Shown one piece after another: positions 12,733 to 29,788 of a DNA stretch of 32,512 nucleotides. The notes under the pieces were generated by a model. The model was not told the origin of the DNA. It saw only the letters and a list, made by a program, of their open reading frames with translations, and did no database searches. How positions within the stretch are numbered: position 1 is the stretch's first letter; each line of letters opens with the position of its first letter. Origin of the DNA: a virus; IMG/VR virus record IMGVR_UViG_3300042991_000413, positions 1 through 32,512 of that record; one strand, given 5' to 3'. The position numbers were made by a program, and so were the translations under genes.

Positions 12733-15108
12733 ATGAAACCAGTCCTTATTGTAGAACATTGCATGGACGGTCTAAAACCATTAAGCGAATCTAATACTCC
12801 AAAAGGTGAATATATTTTGGGTGGTACGTTTACTGAGTTCGGAATTAAAAATAGGAACGACAGGATTTATACCGCTGAAAAATTTATACCGCATCTTAAC
12901 GAGTTATTAAGTCGTAAGAAACAATTAGGTGTTGTTTATGGTGAATTTGATCATCCTGATGTTTTTGACACATCATTATCAAGGGTTTCGCACACAATCG
13001 AAAATGCACAGTATGTTAAAGAAAGTAACATAGTTACAGGTAAAATTAGATTGCTCAATACACATTGGGGTAAAGAAGCGAAGGCACTTGTTGATGATGG
13101 TTGTCCAATTTTTGTGTCATCTAGAGCTGCAGGCATTACAGAATCTGATGGTACAGTAACAGTAAAAAAGCTATTTACTTATGATGCCGTAGCTGATCCT
13201 GGATTTAGTTCAGCACGAATGGAAGTTAGATCTTTAAATGAAAGTTTAGGATTTAATGAAAGTTCAAACTTTAGGGTATATGATATATCTGATGAGTCAA
13301 AAATTAATGAATTATTTAAAATGAATGAAGATTTTGTTACAAAAAAACAAATGGTCGAGTATTCTAATTATTTAACTGAAGAAATTGAAAAATTCAAAAC
13401 TGCTATTAACGAAGCAATAAAAGGTAATACCGAGTTTGATCCTTCTAAGTTAGAAACAATGCTTGATTATCACGAAAAATTGCATGAACAACAAACAAAA
13501 ATTGGCAAGTATTTAGATTATTTAGCCGAAAAATTACAATTTGTTGTTAATGAAAACATTGAATTGAAGAAAACCACTACAGGTTTAATTAAACACAATG
13601 ATTATCTTGCTGAAAATTTGGAAAAAATAGGAAACTATTCTGAATATTTAGCTGAAAATCTTGACAAATCTATTGATTATGGTAAATATGTTGCCGAAAC
13701 ATTAGATAAAAATATTGACTTTTCAGAATATATTGCTGAACATGTTGATAAAAATATTAAATACTCTGAGTATTTAGCTGAAAATCTTGATAAATCTATT
13801 GATTATTCAGAATATATAGCTGAAAGCTTAGATAAATCTATTGATTATTCAGAATATGTTGCTGAAAATCTTGACAAATCTATTGAATATTCAGAATATT
13901 TAGCAGAGAGTTTAGATAGTTCTATTGTTTATTCAGAGTACATAGCTGAAAATCTTGACAATAATATTGCATATTCGGAATATATTGCAGAACATGTTGA
14001 TAATAACATTTCTTATTCAGAGTATATCGCTGAAAATCTTGATGATTCAATGGCTTATACAAATTATATCGCTGAAAATCTTGACAAAACTATTGAAAGT
14101 TCAAAACTTTTAACTGAACAGTTGAAAACTGGCGGTAAAGTTAATGAAACATTCGAATTTGTTAATGAAGAAGGTGATGTTAATGTAGATCAATATTACG
14201 ATGATGAAGATGGTGATTCATTAGAAGGTCCAACTTCGGAAGCTCAACCAGAAGTTGTTGATCAAGATCCAACAGCAGTTGATGTGCAAGGTGAAGGCGA
14301 AATTGATGTGCAAGGTGAAGGCGAAATTGATGTGCAAGGTGAAGGCGAAATTGACGTACAAGGTGATGAAGATGTAGAAGAAAGTGACATCGCTGGTATT
14401 CCAGCACCTGGTGAAACTGTTGCAATTGGTGACCAAACTGGTGAAGTTATGGCAACTAATGCACAAACTGGTATCGTTGTAGTTCAATTAGATGTACCTG
14501 ACGAAGAAGGTCAAGTTCAAGAAGTTGAAGTACACGAATCTAAAGTTACTAGATTAGGAAGTAGATTGAACAACGTTCAAACATCCTTAAAAGATAATAT
14601 AAATAAATTGATCCTTGAAACTAAAAAAAGAAAAGCTTCAGAAGAAGATCAACCACATTTTTTAATGTTTTTAACTGAAAAAAGAAAAGCAGCCTATTAT
14701 TCTTTATCTGATGAAGATAAAACTAAAGTTAAAATGGCTTTAAATGAAAACGTTGGTAAATATACTAGCGAATCACAAGTTATTTCAATTATTAATGAAG
14801 CTCTTTCTCCAAAGAAAAAATCATTCAACGAATTGTTACTTGATGCAATGCCATCAGAATTAACACCAATTTGGGAAAAACTTGACAGTAATGTTAAAAA
14901 TAATATTATTTTAACTTCAAGATTGTTCCCTGCTCTTGATACAGTACAAAAATTTGAGAGTTTCTGGTACAGTAGAGATTTAGAAAGGTACACAAACGAA
15001 AAACCTTCAAAACAATTAATTACAGAAAATCGTTTAGTTGACGGTTCAAAATTAACTGAATCACAACTAGATAGATTTAAATCAGTGTTTGATAAATTGA
15101 ATTCTTAA
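12733..15108 (+). CDS. 21: Prohead protease fused to scaffold-like repeat protein (gp21-gp22-like fusion)
   Basis: Residues 1 to about 170 match the T4 gp21 prohead protease: GGTFTEFGIKNRNDRIY, catalytic His in GEFDHP (H74), Ser in FVSSRAAG (S129 or S130) and the YDAVADPGFSSA segment (150-161). T4 gp21 is only 212 aa, whereas this protein is 791. Residues 287-454 are twelve 14-residue repeats of the type YSEYIAENLDKSID, two heptads each, expected to form a long coiled coil. Residues 470-560 are acidic with three VQGEGEID repeats, and 610-791 is a helical C-terminal domain. The extra part has the size and character of a gp22-type core scaffold, so protease and scaffold seem to be one polypeptide. 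It lies between the portal and capsid genes, as 21-22 do in T4. Sites such as SLNES (168-171) could be self-cleavage points. Confidence 0.88.
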   Translation: MKPVLIVEHCMDGLKPLSESNTPKGEYILGGTFTEFGIKNRNDRIYTAEKFIPHLNELLSRKKQLGVVYGEFDHPDVFDTSLSRVSHTIENAQYVKESNIVTGKIRLLNTHWGKEAKALVDDGCPIFVSSRAAGITESDGTVTVKKLFTYDAVADPGFSSARMEVRSLNESLGFNESSNFRVYDISDESKINELFKMNEDFVTKKQMVEYSNYLTEEIEKFKTAINEAIKGNTEFDPSKLETMLDYHEKLHEQQTKIGKYLDYLAEKLQFVVNENIELKKTTTGLIKHNDYLAENLEKIGNYSEYLAENLDKSIDYGKYVAETLDKNIDFSEYIAEHVDKNIKYSEYLAENLDKSIDYSEYIAESLDKSIDYSEYVAENLDKSIEYSEYLAESLDSSIVYSEYIAENLDNNIAYSEYIAEHVDNNISYSEYIAENLDDSMAYTNYIAENLDKTIESSKLLTEQLKTGGKVNETFEFVNEEGDVNVDQYYDDEDGDSLEGPTSEAQPEVVDQDPTAVDVQGEGEIDVQGEGEIDVQGEGEIDVQGDEDVEESDIAGIPAPGETVAIGDQTGEVMATNAQTGIVVVQLDVPDEEGQVQEVEVHESKVTRLGSRLNNVQTSLKDNINKLILETKKRKASEEDQPHFLMFLTEKRKAAYYSLSDEDKTKVKMALNENVGKYTSESQVISIINEALSPKKKSFNELLLDAMPSELTPIWEKLDSNVKNNIILTSRLFPALDTVQKFESFWYSRDLERYTNEKPSKQLITENRLVDGSKLTESQLDRFKSVFDKLNS
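13591..14094 (+). repeat. Twelve tandem 42-bp repeats (14-residue coiled-coil units)
   Basis: The 504 bases are exactly twelve in-frame 42-base units coding variants of x-Y-S-E-Y-(I/L)-A-E-N-L-D-K-S-I, with a thirteenth degenerate unit after them. No indel breaks the phase. Codons differ between units, so the array is old rather than recently amplified. Confidence 0.9.
14284..14355 (+). repeat. Three 24-bp repeats coding VQGEGEID
   Basis: Three tandem 24-base units, almost identical in DNA (GTGCAAGGTGAAGGCGAAAT and on), encode VQGEGEID. They are followed by a partial fourth, VQGDED. The near identity implies recent duplication, unlike the older 42-base array upstream in the same gene. Confidence 0.85.
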
Positions 15109-15192: not shown

Positions 15193-17013
15193 ATGAATTT
15201 ATTAATTGACAATCAAAAAGCCGTCGCAAAATGGAAACCTGTATTGGAATCGTTAGGCGTATCTGATACTTACAAACAAAAGTGGATGGCAGAGTATGCA
15301 GAAATGCACTCTTTAAATGAAAATGTTGCTTATAGTACATTAGGTAACTTAAACGGTATGGGTGCTGTACAAGCGGCTCAACCTTCAACAACTCCTGGTT
15401 TAGTTTGGGGTGACTATGGTATGGGAACAGCAGGTGGTATTGGTTCTGGTGATGTTGGTCAAAACCTTCTTCCAGTTTCAATGAAAATCGCTGCTCAAAC
15501 TATTGGTTTAGATTTAGTAGCTGTTAAACCAGCTTCTTCTCCAAAAGTTGACTTGTTATTTGTTGACTTCAAATATGATAACTTAGCTGACTCTACATTG
15601 AAAGATGAGAGACCAATTATGTTCTCTTTGAATATGGCAAGTTCTTCTAATGTTGCTGCATTGAACGCAGCTTTAAAAGCTTCTATGGCAGCTAAATTGG
15701 ATGCTAATGGACAACCAGTAAGAGAAAAAGTAGGTGGCTTAACTGCTCCTGTTTATGTTCACTTATCAGGTGGTACTCTTTTAACTGCTGCAGGAACATC
15801 AACTGGCGTTTATTTCGCAAAAGGATGGCAAACTGCTGCTCAACTTGAAAATTTTGATTCAACTTTAACCAATTATCCAGCTAATGGTACAACTCCTAAA
15901 AAAGAAGGTATCATGGAATTCTTAGGATGGTCACGTATTAATGGTTATCCAATGTTTAGAATCTTCCGTCAATTCAACACTGGCGCTAATAACGCAGGAT
16001 GGGGTTTTGTAGATGATAGAAATACTTTCCCAACAGCAGCATATTCAATCGTGGATATGTTAAATGATGCTACAGCATTAGAAGTTACTGATGGTGATGT
16101 TTTAAGTGGTCTTACCTTAACTGGTTGTACTATTGATTTAGTATCATTGTTAGAAGATCATATTCCTGGCTTCTCAGCAGGTTGGTATATGAACAAACCT
16201 ATGACAAGAGATGAGGACGAAAGAACTTATCCAAATGTTATTGGACCAGACATCTTCACTAAAAATATTCAAGTTGGTGATGTAGAAATCTCTTCTTCAT
16301 TGAAAAGAACTCAAATTGAAGATATTAAAGCCGCTACTGGTATGGATATCGTTCAAAAATTAGAATCAGTATTGGTTAATGAACTTACTCAAACTATTTC
16401 TAAACAAATTATTGCAAAAGTAACTGAACTTGCAGACAAAAATAGAACAGCTTGGACTACTCCTAAAGATGGTTCTGGTGTTTCTAAATTCGACTTCAAC
16501 GTTGATGCTTATTTAGCAGTTGGTGCAGCTACCCCTGGTGGTGAAACTACTCACTCTATTCAAAGAAAGCTTATTGCTAAATTGAATAATGCTTCTAACT
16601 TCATCGCAACTGAAGGTCGTGTTGGTCCAGCTCAATACCTTGTAACTAACGGTAACTTAGCTTCTGTTATTCAAGATGTTGCTGGTTATACTATTAACCC
16701 AGTTAAAGCAAACTTAAATGCAAATGGTCAATTATTCCCAATGGGTAATGTTGGTAACATTTCTATTTATGTAGATCCTTATCAAAGATGGGATGACAAT
16801 CGTATCTTCTTAGGAAGAAAAAATAGTGTTGAACAACCAGGTTTGGTATTCGTACCTTACTTAATGGCACAGTCAATACAACTTATTTCCGAATCGACTT
16901 GGGCACCAAGAATGTTAATTCGTTCAAGATATGCTGTCGCTGATATTGGGTTCTTTCCATGGAAGCAATTCATGACAATTTTAGTTACTGATACCGCAGG
17001 TGTTCTTATCTAA
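15193..17013 (+). CDS. 23: Major capsid protein, T4 gp23-like
   Basis: This 606-aa protein is the main shell protein of the head. Conserved parts include NLLPVSMKIAAQTIGLDLVA and VKPASSPKVDLLFVDFKYD near the N-terminus, equivalent to the T4 gp23 LIAYDICGVQPMTGPTG region. They also include the C-terminal PGLVFVPYLMAQSIQLISES and the following WAPRMLIRSRYAVAD, which are highly conserved in gp23. The prohead-protease site is probably after E43 in SLNE|NVAYST, which fits the (L/I)-x-E rule. Codon choice shifts to GCT, ACT, AAC and TTC compared with neighbours, as expected for the most expressed gene. It has its own promoter-like block and a strong terminator right after the stop, consistent with a separate abundant transcript. 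Confidence 0.93.
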   Translation: MNLLIDNQKAVAKWKPVLESLGVSDTYKQKWMAEYAEMHSLNENVAYSTLGNLNGMGAVQAAQPSTTPGLVWGDYGMGTAGGIGSGDVGQNLLPVSMKIAAQTIGLDLVAVKPASSPKVDLLFVDFKYDNLADSTLKDERPIMFSLNMASSSNVAALNAALKASMAAKLDANGQPVREKVGGLTAPVYVHLSGGTLLTAAGTSTGVYFAKGWQTAAQLENFDSTLTNYPANGTTPKKEGIMEFLGWSRINGYPMFRIFRQFNTGANNAGWGFVDDRNTFPTAAYSIVDMLNDATALEVTDGDVLSGLTLTGCTIDLVSLLEDHIPGFSAGWYMNKPMTRDEDERTYPNVIGPDIFTKNIQVGDVEISSSLKRTQIEDIKAATGMDIVQKLESVLVNELTQTISKQIIAKVTELADKNRTAWTTPKDGSGVSKFDFNVDAYLAVGAATPGGETTHSIQRKLIAKLNNASNFIATEGRVGPAQYLVTNGNLASVIQDVAGYTINPVKANLNANGQLFPMGNVGNISIYVDPYQRWDDNRIFLGRKNSVEQPGLVFVPYLMAQSIQLISESTWAPRMLIRSRYAVADIGFFPWKQFMTILVTDTAGVLI

Positions 17014-17032
17014 TAATTAGATATTTAAAATC

Positions 17033-17058
17033 AAAGGAGAGTATTTATACTCTCCTTT
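17033..17058 (+). terminator. Intrinsic terminator after the major capsid gene
   Basis: AAAGGAGAGTA pairs perfectly with TACTCTCCTTT around a TTTA loop, followed by more T residues. It begins 20 bases after the capsid stop. It insulates the capsid transcript from the mosaic endonuclease/GNAT gene downstream. Confidence 0.9.
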
Positions 17059-17141
17059 TTTTGTCTCATATAAATAATAATATTTGTGACATTAAAATGA
17101 TAATAATATAAACTTTTGAGCTATTAAATTATATATAGTGT

Positions 17142-19118
17142 ATGATTAAAATAGATAAAATAGAAATAAAAACCACCAATAAAAATGTTGGATATTATAA
17201 GAATATTGGTTATAATATAAAATCAGGAGATGTAATTATTATTAATGTTTCTGATTTACCAGGAACATCAAAATATAAAATTGATGTTTCTTGTGATAAT
17301 TGTAAAAAAGAATATAAAATATCATATTTCTCATATTTGAGAAACATTAAAAGTGATATTTATTATTGTAAAAAATGTTCAGGTATAAGAGCAAAAGAAA
17401 CCAATTTAGAGAAATATGGAGTTGAACATCCTTTACAATTAGAAGAATTTAAAAATAAATCAAAGGAAACTAATTTAGAAAAATATGGATTTGAATATTC
17501 TATTCAAAATAGTAATATTAGAGATAAATCAAAAAATACAATTAAGGAAAAGTATGGTTCAGATGAATATATGTCAACTGAAGATTTTAAGAAAAAATCT
17601 AAAATAACATTAACTGAAAAATATGGTGTAGAACATCCTTTGCAAAATAATTTAATTAAACTCAAAGTTGAAAATACATGTATGAAAAGATATTCAGCGA
17701 AATCTCCATTGGAATCAGATATAATTAAAGAAAAAATATCTATTGTAAAAAAAGATAGATATGGTGATGAATTTTATAATAATAGAGATAAATATAAAGA
17801 AACATGTTTAGAGAGATTTGGGTTTGAAAATCCAATGCAAAATGAATTTGTAAAACAAAAATTATCAAATATAGTATTTGAAAAATATGGTGTATATCAT
17901 CCAGCACAAAACGATACAATATATAAAAAGATGATGAAAAATGGCATTAAAATATCGAAATATAATGAATCAGATATTTATTATCAAGGAGAATATGAAT
18001 TGGATTTTTTGAATAAATATTTTAATAAAATTAAAATAGGAAGAGGCAAATCAATAAAATATATTTTTAATGAGCAAGAATATGTATATTTTCCAGATTT
18101 TTATTTTCCAGATTTAAATTTAATTATAGAGATAAAATCATCTTATTGGTATAATAAACATTATGCTAAAAACTTAGCAAAAGAAAAGGTATGTAAAGAA
18201 AATGGTTATAATTTTTTATTTATAATAAATAAAAATTATGAAATATTTGAAAAAATGATTAATCCTATTATTTATAATAAAGAACACTCATGGCAATATG
18301 ATTTAAGATTAAATACGTTGGAATATGATATTAAAAATATAAATTTTGATTATACTAAACTTAAAATATCAGATTTTAAATTTGAGAGTATAGAAAAAAA
18401 TGATATTAGAACTAAAGAAGTTGTAGAGTTTATTAAAAAGTATGAATGGCTTGGTAAAATGCCAAATAGACCAACACATAGATTTATTGCAACTTATGAT
18501 AATATTTTAGCTGGTGTTATTGTTATGTCAACACCAAATTCTTTTTCTATGATGTTGGGTGAAAATACATCAAATATAGAAAAACTTATTAGTAGAGGTG
18601 CATGTGCATCTTGGACACCAAAGAATTTAGCAAGTTCATTATTAATGTGGTCTATTAATTGGATGGTTAAAAATACAGAATTTAGATTATTTGAAGCATA
18701 TGCAGATCCAGAAGCAAAGGAACTTGGTACTATTTATCAGGCTTGTAATTTTTATTATCTTGGAGATAATTTTGGTTCCGATAAACTATATTTTAATCCA
18801 AATAATCCGAATGGTTGGGTTAACAATAGGGGATTTAGGAAACTTAATTTTTATAAATCATTTTTGAAAAAAAATGGAATCATTTGGAATAATGAATGGA
18901 GTAAAAAAACAACAATATTATGGAATAAAATACCTAATGATATTGTAATAAAAATGAAAGAGTATTCTGTTAATTGTTTAAATGGTTGTCATGTTAGAAA
19001 GCCAAAAAATAAACACAAATATGCGTATGTTATTGGTAAAAATAAAAAAAAAACTAAATTATTAAGAAAGTATTTTGAAAAAAATAATAAAATATTTCCT
19101 TATCCTAAAAATAGATAA
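17142..19118 (+). CDS. Mosaic protein: Zn knuckles, KYG repeats, Vsr-like nuclease, Mom-like acetyltransferase
   Basis: Four parts can be seen in 658 aa. Residues 51-79 hold two CxxC pairs (C51/C54, C76/C79). Residues 84-261 hold about eight 23-residue repeats of the type T-x-L-E-K-Y-G-V-E-H-P-L-Q, known from phage homing-endonuclease-like proteins. Residues about 280-365 look like a Vsr/restriction-type nuclease (GEYELDFL, YFPDFYFPDLNLIIEIKSSY, E330 and K332). Residues about 425-585 match Mom-type GNAT proteins: WLGKMPNRPTHRFIA, LISRGACASWTP and FEAYADPEAKELGTIYQACN. Mu Mom modifies adenines with a methylcarbamoyl group. The gene lies right after the capsid terminator, a usual site for selfish endonucleases. 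It could be a homing endonuclease with a passenger domain or a modification-linked nuclease. Domain calls are from motif reading only. Confidence 0.75.
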   Translation: MIKIDKIEIKTTNKNVGYYKNIGYNIKSGDVIIINVSDLPGTSKYKIDVSCDNCKKEYKISYFSYLRNIKSDIYYCKKCSGIRAKETNLEKYGVEHPLQLEEFKNKSKETNLEKYGFEYSIQNSNIRDKSKNTIKEKYGSDEYMSTEDFKKKSKITLTEKYGVEHPLQNNLIKLKVENTCMKRYSAKSPLESDIIKEKISIVKKDRYGDEFYNNRDKYKETCLERFGFENPMQNEFVKQKLSNIVFEKYGVYHPAQNDTIYKKMMKNGIKISKYNESDIYYQGEYELDFLNKYFNKIKIGRGKSIKYIFNEQEYVYFPDFYFPDLNLIIEIKSSYWYNKHYAKNLAKEKVCKENGYNFLFIINKNYEIFEKMINPIIYNKEHSWQYDLRLNTLEYDIKNINFDYTKLKISDFKFESIEKNDIRTKEVVEFIKKYEWLGKMPNRPTHRFIATYDNILAGVIVMSTPNSFSMMLGENTSNIEKLISRGACASWTPKNLASSLLMWSINWMVKNTEFRLFEAYADPEAKELGTIYQACNFYYLGDNFGSDKLYFNPNNPNGWVNNRGFRKLNFYKSFLKKNGIIWNNEWSKKTTILWNKIPNDIVIKMKEYSVNCLNGCHVRKPKNKHKYAYVIGKNKKKTKLLRKYFEKNNKIFPYPKNR

Positions 19119-19703: not shown

Positions 19704-20375
19704 ATGAGGCTTTTAATAAAATTTCCAACAAGAAATAGGAGAAAAAAATTTTTTGAAGTGTTAGATAAATATTATTCTATGTTAAATAATATAAATTTAA
19801 CAGATTTTTGTATAACTATTGATGAGGATGATTTAACAATGAATAACGATGAGGTGTTAGCTATTTTAGATGGTTATGAAAATTTAAGTTGGTTTGTTGG
19901 TAATTCAAAAAGTAAAATTGCAGCTTGTAATGCTGATGTAGATGAGATAGAAGATTGGGATGTTGTTTTATTAGCATCTGATGACATGGTTCCACAAATA
20001 AAAGGATTTGATGATTTAATTAGGGATAATATGGAGAAGTATTATCCAGATACAGATGGTGTATTATGGTTTTTTGATGGAAATAGAAAGGACCTTAATA
20101 CACTTTGTATTTTAGGTAAAAAATATTATGATAGGTTTGGTTATATTTATCATCCTGGATATAAATCTTTTTATTGTGATGATGAATTTACAAAAGTTGC
20201 AAATAAATTAAAAAAACAAACATTTATAGAACAAGTAATTATAAAACATGAGCATCCAGATATTCCACAATTTAGATCTAATTTTGACGAGTCTTACGCC
20301 AAAAATAGTAAATATTATCCTGTTGATGCAAATTTTTTTCAATTAAGACAAAAAAATAATTTTGGATTAAAATGA
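19704..20375 (+). CDS. GT-A fold glycosyltransferase-like protein
   Basis: This 223-aa protein opens LLIKFPTRNRRKKFFEVL, the usual first strand and nucleotide-binding loop of GT2-like transferases. An acidic ITIDEDD follows at 38-43, and LLASDDMVPQ at about 89-98 is the DxD-like metal/nucleotide-sugar site. Residues from about 120 (DGVLWFFDGNRKDLNTLCIL) to HPGYKSFYCDDEF give the acceptor side. It has no membrane segment, so it would act in the cytoplasm. It is first in the rightward glycan cluster and overlaps the FkbM gene by four bases (ATGA). Donor and acceptor are unknown. Confidence 0.7.
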   Translation: MRLLIKFPTRNRRKKFFEVLDKYYSMLNNINLTDFCITIDEDDLTMNNDEVLAILDGYENLSWFVGNSKSKIAACNADVDEIEDWDVVLLASDDMVPQIKGFDDLIRDNMEKYYPDTDGVLWFFDGNRKDLNTLCILGKKYYDRFGYIYHPGYKSFYCDDEFTKVANKLKKQTFIEQVIIKHEHPDIPQFRSNFDESYAKNSKYYPVDANFFQLRQKNNFGLK

Positions 20376-20935
20376 ATATAGTACAAATAGGTGTATGTGA
20401 AGCAAATGATGATTTAACACAATTAATTGATAATAATCAACCAGACAAATTAATATTAGTTGAGCCTTTAAGTGTGCATAATGAAAACATATTAAAATGT
20501 TATGATTGGGTTAATAATAAATTTTTAGAAAATATTGCAATTTTACCAAATCATACGGACGAAAAAATAGATTTTTATTATCATGAAAAAGATGGTCCAT
20601 TATATGAGGTTGCAAGTATTAATGTTTCACACATATTAAAACATGGTTTTGATATATCTGGAGTTAAAAAATTGTCTGTTGATTGTTTCACGGTCAATGA
20701 ATTATTTGATAAATATGAATTAAAAAACATTGATATATTATATATTGATGCAGAAGGTATGGATGATCATATAATTAAGAGTATTGATTTTAGTAGTTAT
20801 ACAATAGATACTATATATTTTGAAAATTTACATTTAAATCAACTGGATATATATAATTATTTAAAAAATAAAGGATATGATATTACTATGAAAACTGGTC
20901 GTTATAATTGGAATTCATTAGCTAAAAAAATATAA
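20372..20935 (+). CDS. FkbM-family SAM-dependent methyltransferase
   Basis: This 187-aa protein opens with an IVQIGVCEANDDL SAM-binding loop and LILVEPLSVHNENI, where the acidic E-P is typical of FkbM proteins. It continues with LSVDCFTVNELFDKY and IDILYIDAEGMDDHIIKSID, the hallmark FkbM motifs. These enzymes O-methylate sugars or polyketides; in glycan clusters they usually methylate a sugar hydroxyl. It is somewhat short at the N-terminus compared with most family members, so it is a minimal catalytic core. It is coupled to the preceding transferase gene by a 4-base overlap and followed after 4 bases by another transferase gene, so the three are one translational unit. Confidence 0.85.
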   Translation: MNIVQIGVCEANDDLTQLIDNNQPDKLILVEPLSVHNENILKCYDWVNNKFLENIAILPNHTDEKIDFYYHEKDGPLYEVASINVSHILKHGFDISGVKKLSVDCFTVNELFDKYELKNIDILYIDAEGMDDHIIKSIDFSSYTIDTIYFENLHLNQLDIYNYLKNKGYDITMKTGRYNWNSLAKKI

Positions 20936-20939
20936 GAAT

Positions 20940-21605
20940 ATGAAAAAAATTATTGCATTTAGTTTATGGGGTGATAATCCAAAATATACAATTGGTGCTA
21001 TTAAAAATGCAAATTTAACTAACGAAATATATTCAGGCTGGACTTCAAGATTTTATTGCGGTCAAAGTACACCAGAAGAAATTATTAATCAATTGAAAAA
21101 TATTGATAATTGTGAGGTTGCTATGATGAATGAGGATGGAAATTGGACTGGTATGTTTTGGAGATTTTTACCAGCAGGTGAGAGTGATGTGGATGTTATG
21201 TTAAGTAGAGATTGTGATTCTAGATTAAATTTAAGAGAGAAAGCTGCTGTTGATGAATTTATGAAAAGTTATAAAACATTTCATATTATGAGAGATCATC
21301 CTTGGCACACGACTGAAATTTTAGGTGGTATGTGGGGTGTTAAATATCCCACATTAAGAAAAATGAAAGGAATGATAGATGAATATATAAAGGGTGATTT
21401 TTGGCAGGTAGATCAAAATTTTTTAAGAACAAAAATTTATCCATTAGTAGTTAAAGATAGTTTAGTTCATGATGAATTTTTTAGGTATAATACAAATGCT
21501 AGACCTTTTCCAATTAAAAGGGAAGGTCAACAATTTGTAGGAGAAGCCTTTGATGAAAATGATGTACCTAATTTTCAACATAGAAGTATGATAAAAATAA
21601 TGTAA
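20940..21605 (+). CDS. Putative glycosyltransferase with DCD metal-binding motif
   Basis: This 221-aa protein starts KKIIAFSLWGDNPKYTIGAI, like a number of small bacterial and viral sugar transferases. VDVMLSRDCDSRLNLREKAA at about residues 84-103 provides a D-x-D. After it come MRDHPWHTTEILGGMWGVK and WQVDQNFLRTKIYP, which are typical of the acceptor half of such GT-A enzymes. No hydrophobic segment is present. The gene is followed by the frameshifted GT11 gene after 6 bases. The family is not one I can name precisely, so the transferase call is moderately confident. Confidence 0.65.
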   Translation: MKKIIAFSLWGDNPKYTIGAIKNANLTNEIYSGWTSRFYCGQSTPEEIINQLKNIDNCEVAMMNEDGNWTGMFWRFLPAGESDVDVMLSRDCDSRLNLREKAAVDEFMKSYKTFHIMRDHPWHTTEILGGMWGVKYPTLRKMKGMIDEYIKGDFWQVDQNFLRTKIYPLVVKDSLVHDEFFRYNTNARPFPIKREGQQFVGEAFDENDVPNFQHRSMIKIM

Positions 21606-21611
21606 AAGTAA

Positions 21612-22271
21612 TTGGATATAGGATATATTACAAATGGTATTACACAAGATGGTTTTGGTTCTAGAATGTCGAGAGCAATTGAAGCAATGGCATTTACTTT
21701 TTATTTGCAAGATAAGTTTGATGTGAATATTGAATATATACATACACCATTTTCATTTGAAGGGTTTGATAAAGATTTTACTATGGGTGAATCCGTAAGA
21801 ACAATATATGGTCCGCATAATCAACCTAATTTATTTTCGTATAATATGACCAGTAGAAATGGATATTTAAAAAGAGCATTGTTATGGGATAAGTATATGT
21901 GTTATTCTGGTATAACGATTAATGATATTGAGTTGTGTAATATTACAAATATTTTTGATGCTGGTTTAAATAAGTTTAAATTATTTGATGATATATCAAA
22001 ACATGAATATAATAATAAATTATATTTTATTGAATATTTGCATATGGAATTTAGAAATAGATATATAGATTATAATATAGTAAGTGAATATTATAATCAA
22101 ATAAAAAATAGATTTAATTTAATAATATCTGATATGAGTAATGATATTATATTACAAATTCGCCGCAATGATGTTTCGATTGGAGCTAAATATTATGATT
22201 CATCACGTTATCTTGAAGATGAATATTATTTAAATATATTGCAATATATTGCAATATCTTATACCATATAA
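21612..22271 (+). pseudogene. GT11 fucosyltransferase-like gene, N-terminal part before a frameshift
   Basis: The frame begins at TTG directly after an in-frame stop, and the conserved segment TNGITQDGFGSRMSRAIEAM follows at once, so TTG must be the start or a decayed start. That segment corresponds to the G-x-G-N-x-L-F-Q donor-binding motif of GT11 enzymes. The second motif is NDIILQIRRNDVS at about 175-187, equivalent to the H-x-R-R-x-D motif. The frame then passes through a 10-bp tandem duplication at 22233-22257 and stops at 22271. Removing one 10-base copy fuses it to the next frame (about 307 aa in total, normal for GT11). An intact paralogue lies at 26720. Confidence 0.75.
22233..22257 (+). 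repeat. 10-bp tandem duplication causing the GT11 frameshift
   Basis: The period-10 sequence AATATATTGC repeats 2.5 times. Deleting one unit gives the continuous reading NILQYLIPYKNKFNI across the junction. Because 10 is not a multiple of three, each copy gained or lost shifts frame, so this could act as an on/off slippage switch. Confidence 0.85.
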
Positions 22272-22545
22272 AAACAAATTTAATATTATTATTTACACTC
22301 AACGATGCGGATTTGACTCTAATAAATATAGAGATTGGAATGTAATATATGATGATGAAATAGAAGATTATTTTGCTTTTATAAAGATGATAAATGCAAA
22401 AGTTTTAATAATGGGTAAAAGTCAATTTAGTATTGGATCTGCAATGTTAAATCAAAATACTGTGGTGTTTGCACCAGAAATACAAAGACTAGATAGATGG
22501 ATAAGTAAAGATGATTTTTTATCTAATTTGAGTAAAATTTTATAA
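22249..22545 (+). pseudogene. GT11 fucosyltransferase-like gene, C-terminal part after the frameshift
   Basis: Ninety-eight codons continue the GT11 gene in the +1 frame. They include FNIIIYTQRCGFDSNKYRDW (a strand like the VFSDD region of the intact paralogue) and the third motif MGKSQFSIGSAMLNQNTVV, equivalent to N-S-T-F-S-W-W. A TTG inside the duplicated repeat could in principle start it, but without the donor-binding half it would not be an enzyme. It ends 6 bases before the KAS III gene, so the locus still fits the tight spacing of the cluster. Confidence 0.7.
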
Positions 22546-22551
22546 AATATA

Positions 22552-23490
22552 ATGAAAATAAATAATATAGGAATAAAAGGAATTGGTTCATATGCACCAC
22601 CAAAAATATTAACTAACAATGATATTGATAAATTTAATATTGGTACTAATTCAGATTGGACAAAAAATAAATTAGGTATAGATGAGAGACATATTGTTAC
22701 AACAGAAGATACTTCATACTTAGCATATCGAGCATCATTAAACGCTATTAATGATGCAAAAATTGATATTAGAGATATTGATTTGGTCATATTGGCTACA
22801 TCTAGTCCAGATAGAATATCTCCATCAACTGCATGTATCATGATAAATAGGTTGGGTTTAAAATGTCCAGCATTTGATATTAATGCTGTTTGTAGTGGTT
22901 TTGTTTATGGTTTACAATTAGCAACAAATTTAATTAGTACAAAACAATATAAAAATATATTACTAGTTTCGTCTGAAACATATTCGAAAATAACTGATTG
23001 GAATAATAAAAATTGTGTATTTTTTGGTGATGGCGCTGGTGCTGTTGTTATATCAAGTATTAAAAGCGGTTGGATATCTTCGTATATATACGGTGATGGT
23101 ATAGGTAATAATATTTTTACTTGTCATCACGGTGGAACATTTGAAATGAATGGTAAAGAAGTATATAATTTTGCAACTAAAATTTTACCAGAAACAATAA
23201 TTAAATCTTTACATGATAATAATTTAACAATAAGTGACATATCATGGTTAATACCACACCAGCCGAGTATTAATGTTTTATTAGAAACTGCAAAAAGTAT
23301 TAATTTACCAATTGATAAAGTAGTTTTTAATATGGACAAATATGCGAATACTGCTGCAGCATCAATACCAATGGCATTAGATAAATTATATAAAGAAACA
23401 AAAATAAAAAATAATGATATATTAGTTATGCCAGCGGTTGGATCTGGTTGGACATGGGGAGTTTCAATTATTAAATATATAAGATTATGA
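22552..23490 (+). CDS. Beta-ketoacyl synthase III (FabH-like)
   Basis: This is a 312-aa thiolase-fold enzyme that would condense an acyl-CoA with malonyl-ACP. The catalytic triad is intact: C114 in DINAVCSGF, H236 in LIPHQPSI and N266 in KYANTAAAS, matching C112/H244/N274 of E. coli FabH. GDGAGAVVI and the C-terminal VMPAVGSGWTWGVSII are also typical. Its stop overlaps the ATG of the SDR gene (ATGA). In bacterial O-antigen and flagellin-glycan islands, KAS III and SDR pairs make short hydroxyacyl groups for amino sugars; a similar role is inferred here. No acyl-carrier-protein gene is in the window, so host ACP would be needed. FabH-like genes are unusual in phage genomes. Confidence 0.9.
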   Translation: MKINNIGIKGIGSYAPPKILTNNDIDKFNIGTNSDWTKNKLGIDERHIVTTEDTSYLAYRASLNAINDAKIDIRDIDLVILATSSPDRISPSTACIMINRLGLKCPAFDINAVCSGFVYGLQLATNLISTKQYKNILLVSSETYSKITDWNNKNCVFFGDGAGAVVISSIKSGWISSYIYGDGIGNNIFTCHHGGTFEMNGKEVYNFATKILPETIIKSLHDNNLTISDISWLIPHQPSINVLLETAKSINLPIDKVVFNMDKYANTAAASIPMALDKLYKETKIKNNDILVMPAVGSGWTWGVSIIKYIRL

Positions 23491-24131
23491 AAACTATATC
23501 TATTTTTGGTGGTACTGGTGGTTTAGGTAAAAAATTAATACCTTTTTTACAACAAAGATATAATGTCGTTTCATTAGGTAGTAAAGATGTTGATATAACT
23601 AAATTTAGTGAAGTTAAAGATTTTTTTAATGCTAATGATGTTGATATTGTTTTAAATATGAGTGGTAAATTGTATGATATTTATTTAAGTAAAATTACTG
23701 AAGATGATTTTAAATCAATTAATAATATGCTTAATGTAAATATCTTAGGTAATATTAATATATTATCAGCATGTTTACCTAAAATGATAAATAAAAAATA
23801 TGGTAGAGTAATTTCAATGTCTTCTGTTCTTTCTGATATGAATGTACCAAAGGCTTCACTATATTCAGCATCTAAATCATTTATAGATAGATTATATAGT
23901 TCCGCTAATAAAGAAAATGTTGAATATGGTGTAACTTGTAATACAATTAAATTGGGTTATTGGGATGGTGGAATGTGTGATAATATTGAAATAAATTTTA
24001 GAAATAGTATAAAAGAAAAAATTGGTTTAAAAAGATTTGGAAAAATTGAAGAGTTATATAATACTATTAATTATATAATAGATAATGAGTATGTTTGCGG
24101 AATAAACTTAAAAATAGATGGTGGTTTATAA
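23487..24131 (+). CDS. Short-chain dehydrogenase/reductase (FabG-like)
   Basis: This 214-aa Rossmann protein has the cofactor loop FGGTGGLG (7-14), LNMSG (56-60, equivalent to N-A-G) and the catalytic Ser112/113, Tyr126 and Lys130 in SLYSASKSF. The C-terminus GINLKIDGGL is characteristic of ketoacyl-reductase-like SDRs. It overlaps the KAS III gene by four bases, so the product of the synthase, a beta-ketoacyl group, is the natural candidate substrate. A sugar keto-reductase is the alternative. It is slightly shorter than FabG (244 aa). Confidence 0.87.
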   Translation: MKTISIFGGTGGLGKKLIPFLQQRYNVVSLGSKDVDITKFSEVKDFFNANDVDIVLNMSGKLYDIYLSKITEDDFKSINNMLNVNILGNINILSACLPKMINKKYGRVISMSSVLSDMNVPKASLYSASKSFIDRLYSSANKENVEYGVTCNTIKLGYWDGGMCDNIEINFRNSIKEKIGLKRFGKIEELYNTINYIIDNEYVCGINLKIDGGL

Positions 24132-24151
24132 AAATAAAATAATAAAATAGA

Positions 24152-24574
24152 ATGGAGATAATATATTCAAAAATAGAAGAAGATAAAATTCTTCATATAA
24201 TCAGAAGATTATCAGATGTTGAAAAACAGAACAATTTCAGGTTTGATATCATACCTGATTACAATTTTATTCAATGTTCATCTTTAAACATGAATAAAGG
24301 GAAGACATTTAAATCGCACCGACACATATACAAAGAACGAACATATAAAAATAAGATATCACAAGAATCTTGGATAGTTATTAGAGGTAGTGTAAAGTGT
24401 ATATTTTATGACGTGGATAACACTATAATAGCAGAGCCAATATTATATACAGGTGACGTATCATTTACTTTAGATGGTGGACACACATATCTTATATTGG
24501 AAGATAATACTATAGTTTATGAATATAAAACAGGTCCTTATGAAGGACAAGAGTTAGATAAAATATTCATTTAA
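24152..24574 (+). CDS. Cupin-fold protein, sugar-modification type
   Basis: This 140-aa single-domain cupin has a metal-binding set seen in the right order: H56-x-H58 (FKSHRHIY), E72 (QESWIVIRGSVKCIFYD) and H111 (LDGGHTYLILEDN). The pattern resembles WxcM/WbuC-type cupins in O-antigen clusters, some of which are sugar isomerases or epimerases and some of unknown activity. It lies between the SDR and acyltransferase genes, all in the same direction. The exact reaction cannot be read from sequence. The DNA is a little richer in CGA and CGC codons than its neighbours. Confidence 0.75.
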   Translation: MEIIYSKIEEDKILHIIRRLSDVEKQNNFRFDIIPDYNFIQCSSLNMNKGKTFKSHRHIYKERTYKNKISQESWIVIRGSVKCIFYDVDNTIIAEPILYTGDVSFTLDGGHTYLILEDNTIVYEYKTGPYEGQELDKIFI

Positions 24575-24590
24575 AATAAAAGTTTGAAGC

Positions 24591-25127
24591 ATGAAAAATA
24601 TAATATTTAAAAAAATTGGTTATGATGTCAGAATTGATGATTTATCTAGAATAAATAATCCAGAATTAATAGAATTGGGAAATCATATATCAATTGATAT
24701 GTGTGTTTATATGTCATCTGGTGGTATTATAGGAGATTATGTTCATATTGCACATAATGTAAGTATTATTGGAGGATCAACATCAACATTAATTATGGAA
24801 GATTTTACTGGTATATCTGCAGGTTCTCGAATTATTTGTGCTAGTGATGATTTTAATGATGGACATTTATGTCCCTTTGTTCCTTTAAAATATAGACATG
24901 TTATTAATAAGCCAATAATCTTTAAAAGATTTTCTTGTGTTGGCGTTAATTCTGTTGTTATGCCTGGAGTAATTCTTGCAGAAGGTAGTGTGCTTGGTGC
25001 TAATTCATTATTAACTAAAAATACAGAACCTTGGACTATTTATGTTGGTTCACCAGCAGTGGCTATAAAAATTAGAAATTCTGATTTGGTGTTAAAAGGA
25101 GCCAAGGAATTAGGATATATAGTATAA
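24591..25127 (+). CDS. Hexapeptide-repeat (left-handed beta-helix) acyltransferase
   Basis: This 178-aa protein has irregular hexapeptide turns (IELGNHISID, GGIIGDYVHIAHNVSIIGGS, FSCVGVNSVVMPGVILAEGS), and the closing SLLTKNTEPWTIYVGSPAVA is the signature of the NodL/LacA/WbbJ family. These trimers transfer acetyl or longer acyl groups from CoA or ACP to sugar hydroxyl or amino groups. With the KAS III and SDR genes upstream and an aminotransferase gene 15 bases downstream, N-acylation of an amino sugar is the likely role, though this is an inference. A catalytic His could be H54 (VHIAHN) or H60-range; I cannot fix it. Confidence 0.85.
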   Translation: MKNIIFKKIGYDVRIDDLSRINNPELIELGNHISIDMCVYMSSGGIIGDYVHIAHNVSIIGGSTSTLIMEDFTGISAGSRIICASDDFNDGHLCPFVPLKYRHVINKPIIFKRFSCVGVNSVVMPGVILAEGSVLGANSLLTKNTEPWTIYVGSPAVAIKIRNSDLVLKGAKELGYIV

Positions 25128-25142
25128 AAAATAAAATATATT

Positions 25143-25736
25143 ATGAGTTTTAGTATTATAAAAGAATTTGAAAATAAGATATCTGAGTTTTTTGATTCAC
25201 CTTATGGAATTGCTGTTGATAGTTGTACACACGGTGTAGAGTTATGTTTAAGATATTTAAATGTAAAAAAAATAATAATTCCCAAAAATACATATTTATC
25301 AATACCTTTTTTATCAAAAAAAATGGGAATTGAAATGGAGTGGAAAGATGAAAATTGGATAAATTATTATTATTTAACAGAAAATGTCATAGATGCTGCT
25401 GTTCTTTGGAAGAAAGATAGTTATATTCCAAATACTTTTATGTGTTTAAGTTTTCAATATCAAAAACATTTATCATTAGGTAGAGGTGGTATTATTTTAA
25501 CAGACAATCAAAAAGCTGCTATAGATTTAAAAAAAATGTCATATGATGGTAGATTGCCAGATATACCTTGGAGAGAACAAAATATAGATATGGTTGGATA
25601 TCATTATTATATGACACCCGAAACTGCTCAAAATGGGTTAAATAAATTAGATACTGCAATTAGAACTGTTCCAAAACAGTGGAATATTAATGATTGGCCA
25701 GATTTAACAAAAATGAATATTTTTAAAAATGAATAA
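25143..25736 (+). CDS. Half-size DegT/DnrJ/EryC1-family aminotransferase
   Basis: This 197-aa protein spans only the PLP-binding half of a family usually about 370 aa long. It retains VDSCTHGVELCLRYLN (the cofactor phosphate loop), IIIPKNTYLS, VIDAAVLW (D84, PLP nitrogen contact) and SFQYQKHLSLGRGGIILTDN with K108 in the Schiff-base position. The C-terminal small domain is replaced by about 60 residues ending TKMNIFKNE. The frame is intact and overlaps the Gmd gene by eight bases, so it looks like a compact gene rather than debris. It might act on the 4-keto sugar made by Gmd, or have lost catalysis. Confidence 0.75.
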   Translation: MSFSIIKEFENKISEFFDSPYGIAVDSCTHGVELCLRYLNVKKIIIPKNTYLSIPFLSKKMGIEMEWKDENWINYYYLTENVIDAAVLWKKDSYIPNTFMCLSFQYQKHLSLGRGGIILTDNQKAAIDLKKMSYDGRLPDIPWREQNIDMVGYHYYMTPETAQNGLNKLDTAIRTVPKQWNINDWPDLTKMNIFKNE

Positions 25737-26718
25737 AAAGGCGTTAATAACTGGAATATCTGGTCAAGATGGAAGTTATCTTGCAGAATATTTATTGGAA
25801 TTAGGTTACGATGTTCATGGAATAATTAGAAGAAATTCCGTAACAGAAAATCAACAATCAAGATTAGATCATTTTAAACATAATATTAATATATACTATG
25901 GTGATTTATTAGATCAAACATCAATTGAAAAAATAATAACTGATGTTAAACCAGATGAAATATATAATTTGGCTGCACAGAGTCATGTTAGAATTAGTTT
26001 TGATATACCACAATTTACAGTTCAAACAAATTCTGTAGGTGTTGTCAACTTATTAGAATCGTGTAAGAGATTGTGTCCAGACTCAAAAATTTATCAAGCA
26101 AGCTCATCTGAAATGTTTGGTTTGAGTATAGATGATGACGGATTTCAACGTGAAACAACAATAATGAATCCAGTTTCACCTTATGGCTGTTCAAAAGTTT
26201 TTTCATATAATATGATAAGACATTATAGACGAGCATATAATCTTCATGCTTGTAATGGTATATTATTTAATCATGAATCACCAAGAAGAGCAAGTAATTT
26301 TGTTACTAGTAAAGTTGTAAAAACTGCATGTATGATTAAATTGGGTTTGTCTGATAAATTAGAATTAGGTAATATTGATTCTTATAGAGATTGGGGACAT
26401 AGTAAAGATTATGTGAAAGCTATGCATAAAATAATAAATTATGAAATACCAGATGACTTTGTTGTATCAACTATGGAAACTCATTCTGTTAGAGAAATGT
26501 GTGATGTTGTTTTTAAATATTTAAATTTAAATTATGAAGATTATATTGTTCAAAATAAAAAATATTTAAGACCCGAAGAGCTACCATATCTGAGGGGAGA
26601 TTCTACAAAAGTTAGAAGCTTATTAAATTGGAAACCAGAGTATAATTTTGAACAATTAATGTATGAAATGTGTGATCATTGGATGGACATATTAAATGGA
26701 AAAAAATCGTTAAGATAA
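25729..26718 (+). CDS. gmd: GDP-mannose 4,6-dehydratase
   Basis: This 329-aa extended-SDR enzyme converts GDP-mannose to GDP-4-keto-6-deoxymannose, the precursor of GDP-fucose, GDP-rhamnose, GDP-perosamine and GDP-colitose. NADP binding is by ALITGISGQDGSYLAEYLLE (5-24) and IRRNS (33-37). The catalytic residues are S126 and E128 in SSSEMFG, with Y152-x3-K156 in SPYGCSKVF. FNHESPRRASNFVT and YRDWGHSKDYVKAM are Gmd signatures. No GDP-fucose synthase (Fcl) is in the window, so the next step is either encoded elsewhere or done by one of the aminotransferases, giving a perosamine-type sugar. Confidence 0.95.
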   Translation: MNKKALITGISGQDGSYLAEYLLELGYDVHGIIRRNSVTENQQSRLDHFKHNINIYYGDLLDQTSIEKIITDVKPDEIYNLAAQSHVRISFDIPQFTVQTNSVGVVNLLESCKRLCPDSKIYQASSSEMFGLSIDDDGFQRETTIMNPVSPYGCSKVFSYNMIRHYRRAYNLHACNGILFNHESPRRASNFVTSKVVKTACMIKLGLSDKLELGNIDSYRDWGHSKDYVKAMHKIINYEIPDDFVVSTMETHSVREMCDVVFKYLNLNYEDYIVQNKKYLRPEELPYLRGDSTKVRSLLNWKPEYNFEQLMYEMCDHWMDILNGKKSLR

Positions 26719-26719
26719 T

Positions 26720-27511
26720 ATGGTATATTTTAGGCATTTAGGTGAAGAAGAAAAAAAACAAGGTATTAATAGTGGATTTGGGAATGGGTTATTTCAAATT
26801 GCAGCAGCAGTTGGTTTGGCAGAATTAAATAATGATATTGCTATATTTCCACATTGGAGGTTTAATAAATATTTTGAGTGTGGTATAAAAGAAGATTTTG
26901 CCTCTAATTTTAAAATAACTAAAGAATTTGTTGAGCCTGTATTTAATTATATTAAAATACCATATACTAATGGTATAAACTTGTTTGGATATTTTCAATT
27001 AGAAAAATATTTTTATCACTGTAAGGATAAAATAATAAAACTATTTACACTTAAAGATGAATATGAATTTGATTTAAAGGAAAAATGGAAGATACAATTA
27101 AAAAATAGCGTATCCATTCATGTTAGACGAGGAGATTATATTTCACCAGAACATGTTACTAGTATTATATTTACACAAAAAATGGATTATTTTGATAATT
27201 CTATAAAATATATTGAGTCATTAAAAAATATAGATAATATTTTAGTTTTTTCAGATGATATAAAATGGTGTCAAGAAAATTTTCATGATAGTAGATGTAT
27301 TTTTGTTAAAGATCAAATAGAAATATTTGATATGTTTTTAATGAGTTATTGTGAAAATAATATAACTACAAATTCAACATTTTCTTGGTGGGGTAGTTGG
27401 TTAAATAGAAATGATAATAAAATAATTACAATTCCAAAGAATTGGTTTAGTCCACATATACCAAGAGAGCGTTCTGCTGATTTATATAGAAATGATATGA
27501 TTGTAATTTAA
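26720..27511 (+). CDS. GT11-family alpha-1,2-fucosyltransferase-like enzyme
   Basis: This 263-aa protein carries the three GT11 motifs: GFGNGLFQIAAA (19-30), SIHVRRGDY (132-140) and TNSTFSWWGSWLN (217-229). Family members transfer L-fucose from GDP-fucose, forming alpha-1,2 linkages. It directly follows gmd with one base between them, so its donor is probably derived from the Gmd product. It is the intact relative of the frameshifted gene at 21612-22545. It has no membrane segment and is predicted to be cytoplasmic. Confidence 0.9.
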   Translation: MVYFRHLGEEEKKQGINSGFGNGLFQIAAAVGLAELNNDIAIFPHWRFNKYFECGIKEDFASNFKITKEFVEPVFNYIKIPYTNGINLFGYFQLEKYFYHCKDKIIKLFTLKDEYEFDLKEKWKIQLKNSVSIHVRRGDYISPEHVTSIIFTQKMDYFDNSIKYIESLKNIDNILVFSDDIKWCQENFHDSRCIFVKDQIEIFDMFLMSYCENNITTNSTFSWWGSWLNRNDNKIITIPKNWFSPHIPRERSADLYRNDMIVI

Positions 27512-27530
27512 AATAAAATAATAAAAAAAT

Positions 27531-28328
27531 ATGAGAAAAGATTTTGTGAGTAAAGAAATAGAATGTTGGAAAAATGAATCAGCATTAGAAAAATTAAAAA
27601 TTAAAAACGATAAAAAATTTTTATTGAATTCTGATGAGGGTATTGTTGAAGTTTCAAAGGAAAGATGGGAAGAAGCTCAATATTATGAAAAAAAGACCTG
27701 GGATAAACATGAACATATATCAGATATGCCAAATAGAAATATAGAACATGTATTAGATTTTGATAATTATAAAACATTAAATGATGTTTTAACAAATAAA
27801 GATTTATCTATTATAGAGTTGGGATGCGGACCATTTACGCAAATAACACACATATTGAGAAGAATAAATTATAATAGTGTAAAATTAGATTTATTAGATC
27901 CTTTAGTTGATCATTATTCAAAATTAAATAATTGTGTATATAAAGGTGGTGAGTTAATAGGATTTGAAAATGTCGAAATTAATTTAATAAATTCACCAAT
28001 AGAAGAATATAATTTAAATAAAAAATATGATATTATAGTTATGATGAATGTGTTAGAACACTGTTTTAATGTTGCTGAAATATTTGAAAAAATTAATAAT
28101 ATGTTAAAAGAAAATACCATTTTTATTTTTTCTGATTGTTGTATAAAAAACTCTATGATGAATGATTTGGTGGAGTCTCAATATGATAGTGGACATCCTA
28201 TTAGGATAACAGAAAAAAAATTAGATGAATATTTATCACTTTACAATAATAGAATATATTATAAGGAATTTCATGATAGACATAATCAGGAATGGAGGAT
28301 AGATAAATATTGTATATTTAAAATTTAA
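27531..28328 (+). CDS. Class I SAM-dependent methyltransferase
   Basis: This is a 265-aa Rossmann methyltransferase. Motif I is LSIIELGCGPFTQITHILRR at about 92-111, followed by LDLLDPLVDHY as the acidic end of strand 2 and IIVMMNVLEHCFNVAEIFEK (about 168-187) as motif IV with the LEH typical of sugar and small-molecule methyltransferases. The N-terminal 80 residues are Lys/Glu-rich and may bind the acceptor. In this cluster O- or N-methylation of a sugar is likely, but the substrate is unknown. It is 6 bases upstream of the next gene. Confidence 0.8.
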   Translation: MRKDFVSKEIECWKNESALEKLKIKNDKKFLLNSDEGIVEVSKERWEEAQYYEKKTWDKHEHISDMPNRNIEHVLDFDNYKTLNDVLTNKDLSIIELGCGPFTQITHILRRINYNSVKLDLLDPLVDHYSKLNNCVYKGGELIGFENVEINLINSPIEEYNLNKKYDIIVMMNVLEHCFNVAEIFEKINNMLKENTIFIFSDCCIKNSMMNDLVESQYDSGHPIRITEKKLDEYLSLYNNRIYYKEFHDRHNQEWRIDKYCIFKI

Positions 28329-28334
28329 AATATA

Positions 28335-29015
28335 ATGATAAATAAAACAGCTATACTTTTTTTTGGAATACATTATTTAGAAAATTATACTAGATTTTTT
28401 GACCATAATACTAATATTATTTATAATATAGATTATAAAAATTCTTTTTATAATTATAAATCAACATTATTAAAATTTTTTAATAACTCAGATATTTTTT
28501 TATCTACTAATGATTCTAAAAATGTTTTAGAACTGAAAGAAGATTTTAATTGTTTATCTTGTACAGTTAATAATCATTATAATAATTCTGAATTTAGATA
28601 TAAAGAAGCACAAGATAAACTTATAAGTGGATTAGATTTAATTTTAAGACATCAAGTAGAAAATAATGTTTTTTATGAAAACATAATAATAACTAGGTTT
28701 GATTTATTATTTATGATAGCATTTGAGAATGTTTATATAGATTATAGTAAGATAAATGTGGTTTCTGATTTACAAGATGGTTCTATATTAGAAGATAATT
28801 TTTATATAATTCCAGGAAGTTTTTTGAATATCTTTAAAAATATCATTAGGAATAATCCTAATAGACATGATTTAAAATATCAATTTGAACAACATTTAGG
28901 TATAAATTATTTGTATAGGGAGAATGTAAAATGGGTTAAGGATTTATCTTTTTATAAGGTTTATCATTATTATAATTTTGATGAATATTGTAAAAAAGTA
29001 GAAAATAATAAATAA
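28335..29015 (+). CDS. Putative glycosyltransferase-like protein of unknown family
   Basis: This 226-aa protein opens KTAILFFGIHYLENYTRFFD, a first beta-strand and loop as in glycosyltransferases. It has ENIIITRFDLLFMIAFENV at about 115-133; an (I/T)RxD element of this kind is common in viral and O-antigen glycosyltransferase-like proteins, where the Asp takes the DxD role. YIIPGSFLNIFKNII and YQFEQHLGINYLYRE suggest the acceptor side. It lies between a methyltransferase and a DUF115-like gene with one- to six-base gaps. I cannot assign a family, so the function is tentative. Confidence 0.5.
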   Translation: MINKTAILFFGIHYLENYTRFFDHNTNIIYNIDYKNSFYNYKSTLLKFFNNSDIFLSTNDSKNVLELKEDFNCLSCTVNNHYNNSEFRYKEAQDKLISGLDLILRHQVENNVFYENIIITRFDLLFMIAFENVYIDYSKINVVSDLQDGSILEDNFYIIPGSFLNIFKNIIRNNPNRHDLKYQFEQHLGINYLYRENVKWVKDLSFYKVYHYYNFDEYCKKVENNK

Positions 29016-29016
29016 T

Positions 29017-29787: not shown

Positions 29788-29788
29788 A

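Follow-up and report, generated by a model that had tools for sequence, protein, structure and literature searches.

Organization of the Fusion Gene

The window, i.e., the whole stretch of viral DNA analyzed here (32,512 nucleotides; IMG/VR record IMGVR_UViG_3300042991_000413), carries a gp23-like major capsid gene on the plus strand (15193..17013; Pfam Gp23, E = 8.8e-25). Directly downstream on the same strand, in exactly the place given by an earlier sequence-only reading of this DNA, lies a gene with an ATG start that encodes a homing endonuclease-Mom fusion protein of 658 aa (17142..19118). Two Pfam families are matched by the protein: DUF7487 (E = 1e-55, best stretch aa 152-356, above the curated cut-off) and Mom (PF25680, aa 421-543, E = 9.7e-12), the latter with a score of 45.4 bits against a curated cut-off of 27.1. 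PHROGs divides the protein in the same manner, assigning the N-terminal half to the homing endonuclease families PHROG 12131, 3339, and 15137 and aa 411-657 to a "Mom-like DNA modification protein" (phrog_1384, E = 6e-15).

Four segments can be delineated along the plus strand. The N-terminal zinc-knuckle domain (aa 1-82; 17142..17387), related to the PHROG 12131 homing endonucleases, contains the knuckles C51-x2-C54 and C76-x2-C79, and all four cysteines are invariant in the 17 proteins checked. It is followed by eight helical KYG repeats of about 23 aa (aa 83-262; 17388..17927), which belong to DUF7487 and presumably form the DNA-reading region. The [KR][YF][GS] repeat starts are found at aa 91, 114, 137, 160, 183, 206, 225, and 248, giving a spacing of 23 except for one of 19, and the predicted model places one helix in each repeat. 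A PD-(D/E)xK nuclease domain (aa 263-375; 17928..18266) and a complete Mom domain (aa 376-658; 18267..19115) make up the remainder. The sequence-only reading had thus described the two CxxC knuckles, the repeats, and the order of the motifs correctly.

A PADLOC screen returned no match for the fusion protein, and its identification as a known defense protein was rejected on this ground. Chance or misassembly was rejected as well: the same intact fusion is present on about a dozen contigs, and both Pfam matches exceed their curated cut-offs. Orthologs of the same architecture were recovered from other loci in our collection (numbered with the prefix L), namely L002-L011, L117/L196, and L197. 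The fusion is real, intact, conserved, and recurrent.

The Mom Domain

The full-protein AlphaFold2 model has a mean pLDDT of 87. In a Foldseek search, Mom of phage Mu took the first two places with its two chains (8bv8, E = 2e-9), and VIA-align likewise ranked Mu Mom first by a wide margin (Z 17.5 over 199 residues, rmsd 3.3; next protein 13.2), in agreement with the GNAT domain with Mom signatures that had been read from the sequence. These signatures lie at aa 484-545. The domain had previously been bounded at aa 425-590; the Mom fold of this region stands, and its start was moved to nearer aa 376-382, at YNKEHSWQYDLR. The domain as now defined by PF25680, phrog_1384, the 8bv8 fold, and alignment with standalone Moms spans the N-terminal motif of standalone Moms, YNKEHSWQYD, through to the C-terminus.

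An alignment of 12 diverse Moms pairs S124 of Mu Mom with S498 of the fusion protein (codon at 18633..18635, plus strand). The title of PDB entry 8bv8 names S124A as an inactive mutant, and the equivalent of S498 is invariant in all Moms compared. In total, Ser124, Arg111, Asp149, Tyr159, and Asn163 of Mu Mom (PF25680; 241-aa ORF numbering) are kept in the fusion, whose R485, D522, Y532, and N536 are likewise conserved. Mu Mom shares the GNAT fold with the fusion at 17-19% identity, yet it is a standalone protein under the control of Com and lacks the extra C-terminal region. By its residues and its predicted fold, the C-terminal half is a bona fide, catalytically complete Mom domain. A domain repurposed for acyl transfer to a protein or another target, or serving only as a DNA-binding aid, would fit the versatility of GNAT folds and the identity of only about 19-26% between the window Mom and distant Moms, but is highly improbable given the closeness of the Mu Mom structure, the invariance of Ser124 and the R/D/Y/N set, and the standalone Moms that are its close relatives.

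The Nuclease Domain

E286, D319, E330, and K332 are invariant across 10 fused and six standalone proteins. In a profile search with the nuclease domain, the best PDB sequence match was I-Bth0305I (3r3p, E = 0.005), a homing endonuclease of a mobile intron; 3r3p was also the sole PDB match of the whole-protein profile up to E = 1. Since the whole-protein fold search was swamped by GNATs, the nuclease domain was folded separately (pLDDT 90). Foldseek then ranked I-Bth0305I first with a modest E of 0.08, PvuRts1I being among the next matches, and VIA-align gave tied scores for TnsA (8.1), I-Bth0305I (7.7), and Vsr (7.4). What had been called a Vsr-like E-x-K nuclease accordingly has a predicted PD-(D/E)xK fold with E330-x-K332 and the invariant residues named above; the label "Vsr-like" is fair, with Vsr sharing its rank with I-Bth0305I and TnsA. 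The PD-(D/E)xK fold is common to I-Bth0305I and the fusion nuclease, although the fold match is modest and I-Bth0305I is intron-encoded and has no Mom part.

The Site Downstream of the Capsid Gene

Between the capsid gene and the fusion gene, a hairpin followed by a T run resembles an intrinsic terminator (17033..17062, plus strand; fold of 17014-17075, -14.6 kcal/mol), and the same arrangement can be read 3' of the capsid gene in relatives. Because this terminator-like hairpin separates the two genes, the fusion gene is probably its own transcription unit. A conserved motif, AACTTTTGAGCTATTAAA, lies 14 bp 5' of the start codon (17111..17128, plus strand) and is a candidate promoter or operator. 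It has one match in the window; a single match at up to three mismatches is not unusual by chance, and the evidence lies in its conservation, as orthologs carry it 13-16 bp ahead of the fusion start, in one to three tandem copies. In the window, and in all fusion loci with upstream sequence, the gp23-like capsid gene is followed first by the hairpin with T run and then by one or more homing endonuclease genes, the fusion among them.

The form AACTTTTGWGCTATTAAA was observed in one to three tandem copies before the post-capsid endonuclease gene in the window (17111-17128) and in L092, L107, L004, L084, L090, and L114. It also precedes unrelated HNH endonucleases at this site and is nearly absent elsewhere in the loci; besides a promoter or an operator, it might be the remnant of a target. 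By analogy with the autorepression of I-TevI (PMC2988022), AACTTTTGWGCTATTAAA might speculatively be regarded as a candidate operator.

For comparison of the site, relatives were picked by their capsid gene only. After the same capsid gene, they carry the fusion, other endonucleases, or neither. Of 10 scanned first post-capsid ORFs that had no obvious DUF7487 match, eight belonged to homing or HNH endonuclease families, one was tail-fiber-like, and one was without a match; the post-capsid ORFs of DUF7487 type in relatives are PHROG 3339, 559, and 9084 proteins. L087 offers an example of direct replacement: its capsid is 86% and its next conserved gene 81% identical, but the two enclose a different endonuclease, of 572 aa. 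L099 shares the repeat region with the fusion (55%) but has another nuclease-like segment as its C-terminal part, and in L114 only a 50-aa remnant is left. The post-capsid site is a homing endonuclease hotspot, of which the fusion is one occupant.

Precedents for such a site exist. In T4, segD is located between the capsid genes 23 and 24 and is bounded by terminators (PMC2988022), like the site described here; unlike the fusion, it encodes a GIY-YIG enzyme, is antisense, and lacks a modification domain. More generally, a 2023 survey found that phage homing endonucleases are often near capsid genes (PMC10448857).

Inheritance and Selection

The fusion is patchily distributed over the capsid tree: its presence requires six changes, at least four of which are forced by well-supported branches. 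Some of the non-carrier calls in this count, L086 and L095 among them, depend on a short stretch of sequence past the capsid gene, and two carrier calls (L089 and L090) on contigs ending inside the gene, while the site is well shown in L087, L093, L097, L108, L116, and L118; the search was for intact genes, and the comparison is thereby biased against decayed copies. The gene has come and gone among these phages. Together with the endonuclease hotspot, this patchiness supports the homing endonuclease that the sequence-only reading had offered as one of its functional options.

For a given pair of phages, dS is about the same between the fusion genes as between the capsid genes. Since the fusion has diverged in step with the capsid gene, the data do not demonstrate recent homing among these phages and are also consistent with an ancient gene that was inherited and repeatedly lost. 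In close pairs, dN is well below dS in every domain and is usually lowest for the Mom half; more distant pairs approach saturation in dS, and their ratios should be disregarded. Both halves are under purifying selection and look functional.

Origin of the Fusion

Both partners are also encountered as separate proteins. Among the best 80 relatives of the C-terminal half in viral contigs, 10 have a long N-terminal part and 70 are standalone Moms of about 290-330 aa, which open with the motif ...YxKxHCWQYDIR..., the fusion counterpart being YNKEHSWQYDLR at about aa 378-389. In a search with the nuclease profile, all DUF7487-nuclease genes outside the fused group end 0-22 aa past the nuclease domain, and the standalone endonucleases are approximately 360 aa in length. 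The fusion is thus a clean union of a whole endonuclease with a whole Mom. In the Mom tree, the fused sequences group together as a single clade (99/94) whose sister is a group of 12 standalone Moms, and they are likewise a single clade in the tree of the endonucleases (100/98). A single fusion event is the simplest reading. Among the genes neighboring standalone Moms, no DUF7487 match was found, and endonuclease families are only scattered.

Several further observations concern the two families. Standalone Moms in bacterial assemblies (L261-L275) come mostly from Bacteriovoracaceae/Bdellovibrionales, i.e., predatory bacteria, and several of them carry a C-terminal extension of about 100 aa. 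An HNH gene overlaps the Mom gene of Geobacillus phage PK3.6 (L165:2511-3693), and a gene annotated as a type II restriction endonuclease overlaps that of Synechococcus phage DSL-LC03 (L178:439-1609), the nuclease gene coming first in both pairs. Across diverse members of the DUF7487 family (L184-L260), the KYG repeats keep an exact period of 23 residues and vary in number. In relatives of the fusion, 94 KYG intervals are 23 residues and 17 are 46 residues long, and about 100 aa of repeats have been lost in frame from the L010 protein. The repeats could be a modular DNA-reading array.

Relationship to Nuclease-Mom Fusions of Jumbo Phages

The combination of a nuclease with a Mom-like acetyltransferase in one polypeptide had been taken for a new layout in the sequence-only reading. 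The layout as such is not wholly new, as nuclease-plus-Mom proteins were noted earlier in large phages: in a 2021 survey, jumbo phages were reported to encode REase nucleases joined to Mom, which were interpreted there as restriction-modification systems (Iyer et al., 2021; PMC7824862). Among annotated phages, RaK2 encodes a 667-aa "homing endonuclease" with KYG repeats, an EFNG-type (Vsr-type) nuclease, and a C-terminal Mom-like GNAT domain. Phage PA5oct has five long PHROG 3339 matches, and the one examined combines an EFNG-type nuclease with a C-terminal GNAT domain. From the matching count, we infer that the five PA5oct cases of the survey are these five PHROG 3339 copies. The published "momylation restriction systems" of jumbo phages are therefore open to a homing endonuclease reading, the five PA5oct cases matching an annotated homing endonuclease family.

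The C-termini of PHROG 3339 proteins are related to Mom, as indicated by hhalign against a diverse Mom set that includes Mu Mom (A4; 97.7%, E = 2e-12). Direct hhalign of a close Mom alignment (A1) against the same C-termini gave nothing, and A1 against Mu Mom alone matched only 29 columns; the depth of the alignment therefore mattered. The PHROG 3339 fusions share with the window protein a DNA-binding N-terminal part, which in RaK2 contains KYG repeats, a nuclease of the restriction fold, and a Mom-like GNAT domain at the C-terminus; several copies are present per genome. They differ in having a nuclease of the EFNGxYWH Vsr type in place of the DUF7487 nuclease (EIKSS), and in the GNAT domain. 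The latter is only remotely related to Mom and has a loop of the GGA[SN]K type, a VxGGA[SN]K-like stretch replacing the TPxNxES of Mom and the serine there not being invariant, whereas the window Mom is near standalone Moms and has all key residues. In addition, the best phrog_3339 stretch in the window protein covers only aa 49-190, long matches being found in RaK2, PA5oct, and L104. Since the window protein resembles PHROG 3339 only N-terminally, has another nuclease type, and carries a Mom near the standalone Moms, the two nuclease-Mom combinations look independent. The combination of a DUF7487 nuclease with a complete Mom was not found in annotated phage records, and a literature search for a homing endonuclease-Mom fusion, which covered the subscription literature in part, yielded only the 2021 survey.

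Possible Functions

We interpret the gene as a free-standing zinc-knuckle/KYG (DUF7487) homing endonuclease that was joined in frame to a complete Mom, occupies the post-gp23 hotspot, and has been kept as a single bifunctional polypeptide, and we give this reading a probability of about one half. How the protein would cut and at which site, which mark it would leave, and how this mark would protect the carrier can be proposed as follows. A DNA site that most likely lies within or beside the capsid gene would be recognized by the knuckle and KYG repeats. In phage genomes without the element, this site would be cut by the PD-(D/E)xK domain, and repair would then copy the element in. The Mom domain would place a Mom-type adenine mark on the DNA of the carrier. 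In phage Mu, the mark is of a carbamoylmethyl type on N6 of adenine. Such a mark could shield carrier DNA against the enzyme's own cut as well as against host restriction.

Taken one step further, the enzyme may be a self-protecting homing endonuclease that cleaves an allele without the element and modifies its own allele, or its genome, with a Mom-type adenine mark that blocks this cleavage; nuclease-Mom coupling would then have evolved at least twice. We put this forward tentatively, as somewhat unlikely in its full form. If true, the gene would be a selfish gene with a built-in immunity mark; if the activities are coupled, such a homing element would bridge homing endonucleases and restriction-modification. 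No link ties the Mom mark to the site of the nuclease, and the two halves could act separately. Sequence by itself would accommodate self-protection, cargo, and restriction-modification alike.

The strongest of the rival readings, although on the unlikely side, is a role of Mom as cargo: an ordinary homing endonuclease would carry Mom as a general anti-restriction rider that shields the phage, with the two activities uncoupled. Several findings would suit a rider: no second Mom turned up in the carrier records searched, most of which are fragments; standalone Moms in other phages adjoin genes of DNA metabolism (replication, methyltransferase); and close pairs show about their lowest dN in the Mom half. 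Adjacent genes would suffice for this purpose, however, and yet all carriers found have kept the covalent fusion, over a range of capsid divergence that reaches about 54%. Moreover, a nuclease and a Mom-like GNAT domain were combined separately in PHROG 3339.

The restriction-modification-like weapon proposed for the REase-Mom fusions (PMC7824862), in which Mom would mark phage DNA everywhere and the nuclease would destroy unmarked DNA of the host or of superinfecting phages, has a parallel in the overlapping nuclease-Mom gene pairs of Geobacillus phage PK3.6 (HNH) and Synechococcus phage DSL-LC03. For the protein described here this seems doubtful, as the N-terminal half belongs to a homing endonuclease family with long, repeat-based, presumed DNA readers that are expected to see rare sites, and the gene is patchily present at a homing endonuclease hotspot. 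The published examples themselves match multi-copy homing endonuclease genes, as in the five PHROG 3339 proteins of PA5oct.

Other Features of the Window

Beside the capsid gene of this T4-like phage, a long run of sugar biosynthesis genes extends over 19704-31688. Its products include a glycosyltransferase, an FkbM methyltransferase, a 3-oxoacyl-ACP synthase III, a short-chain dehydrogenase, a hexapeptide transferase, a GDP-mannose dehydratase, a GT11 family transferase, an MptE-like protein, a cytidylyltransferase, and a DegT aminotransferase. The DegT aminotransferase-like ORF (25143-25736) has 197 aa against a profile of 360 positions and is perhaps a fragment. Upstream of the capsid gene, numerous self-overlapping BLAST matches revealed internal repeats at about 13600-14130, within a 791-aa prohead-protease-like protein (ORF 12733-15108).
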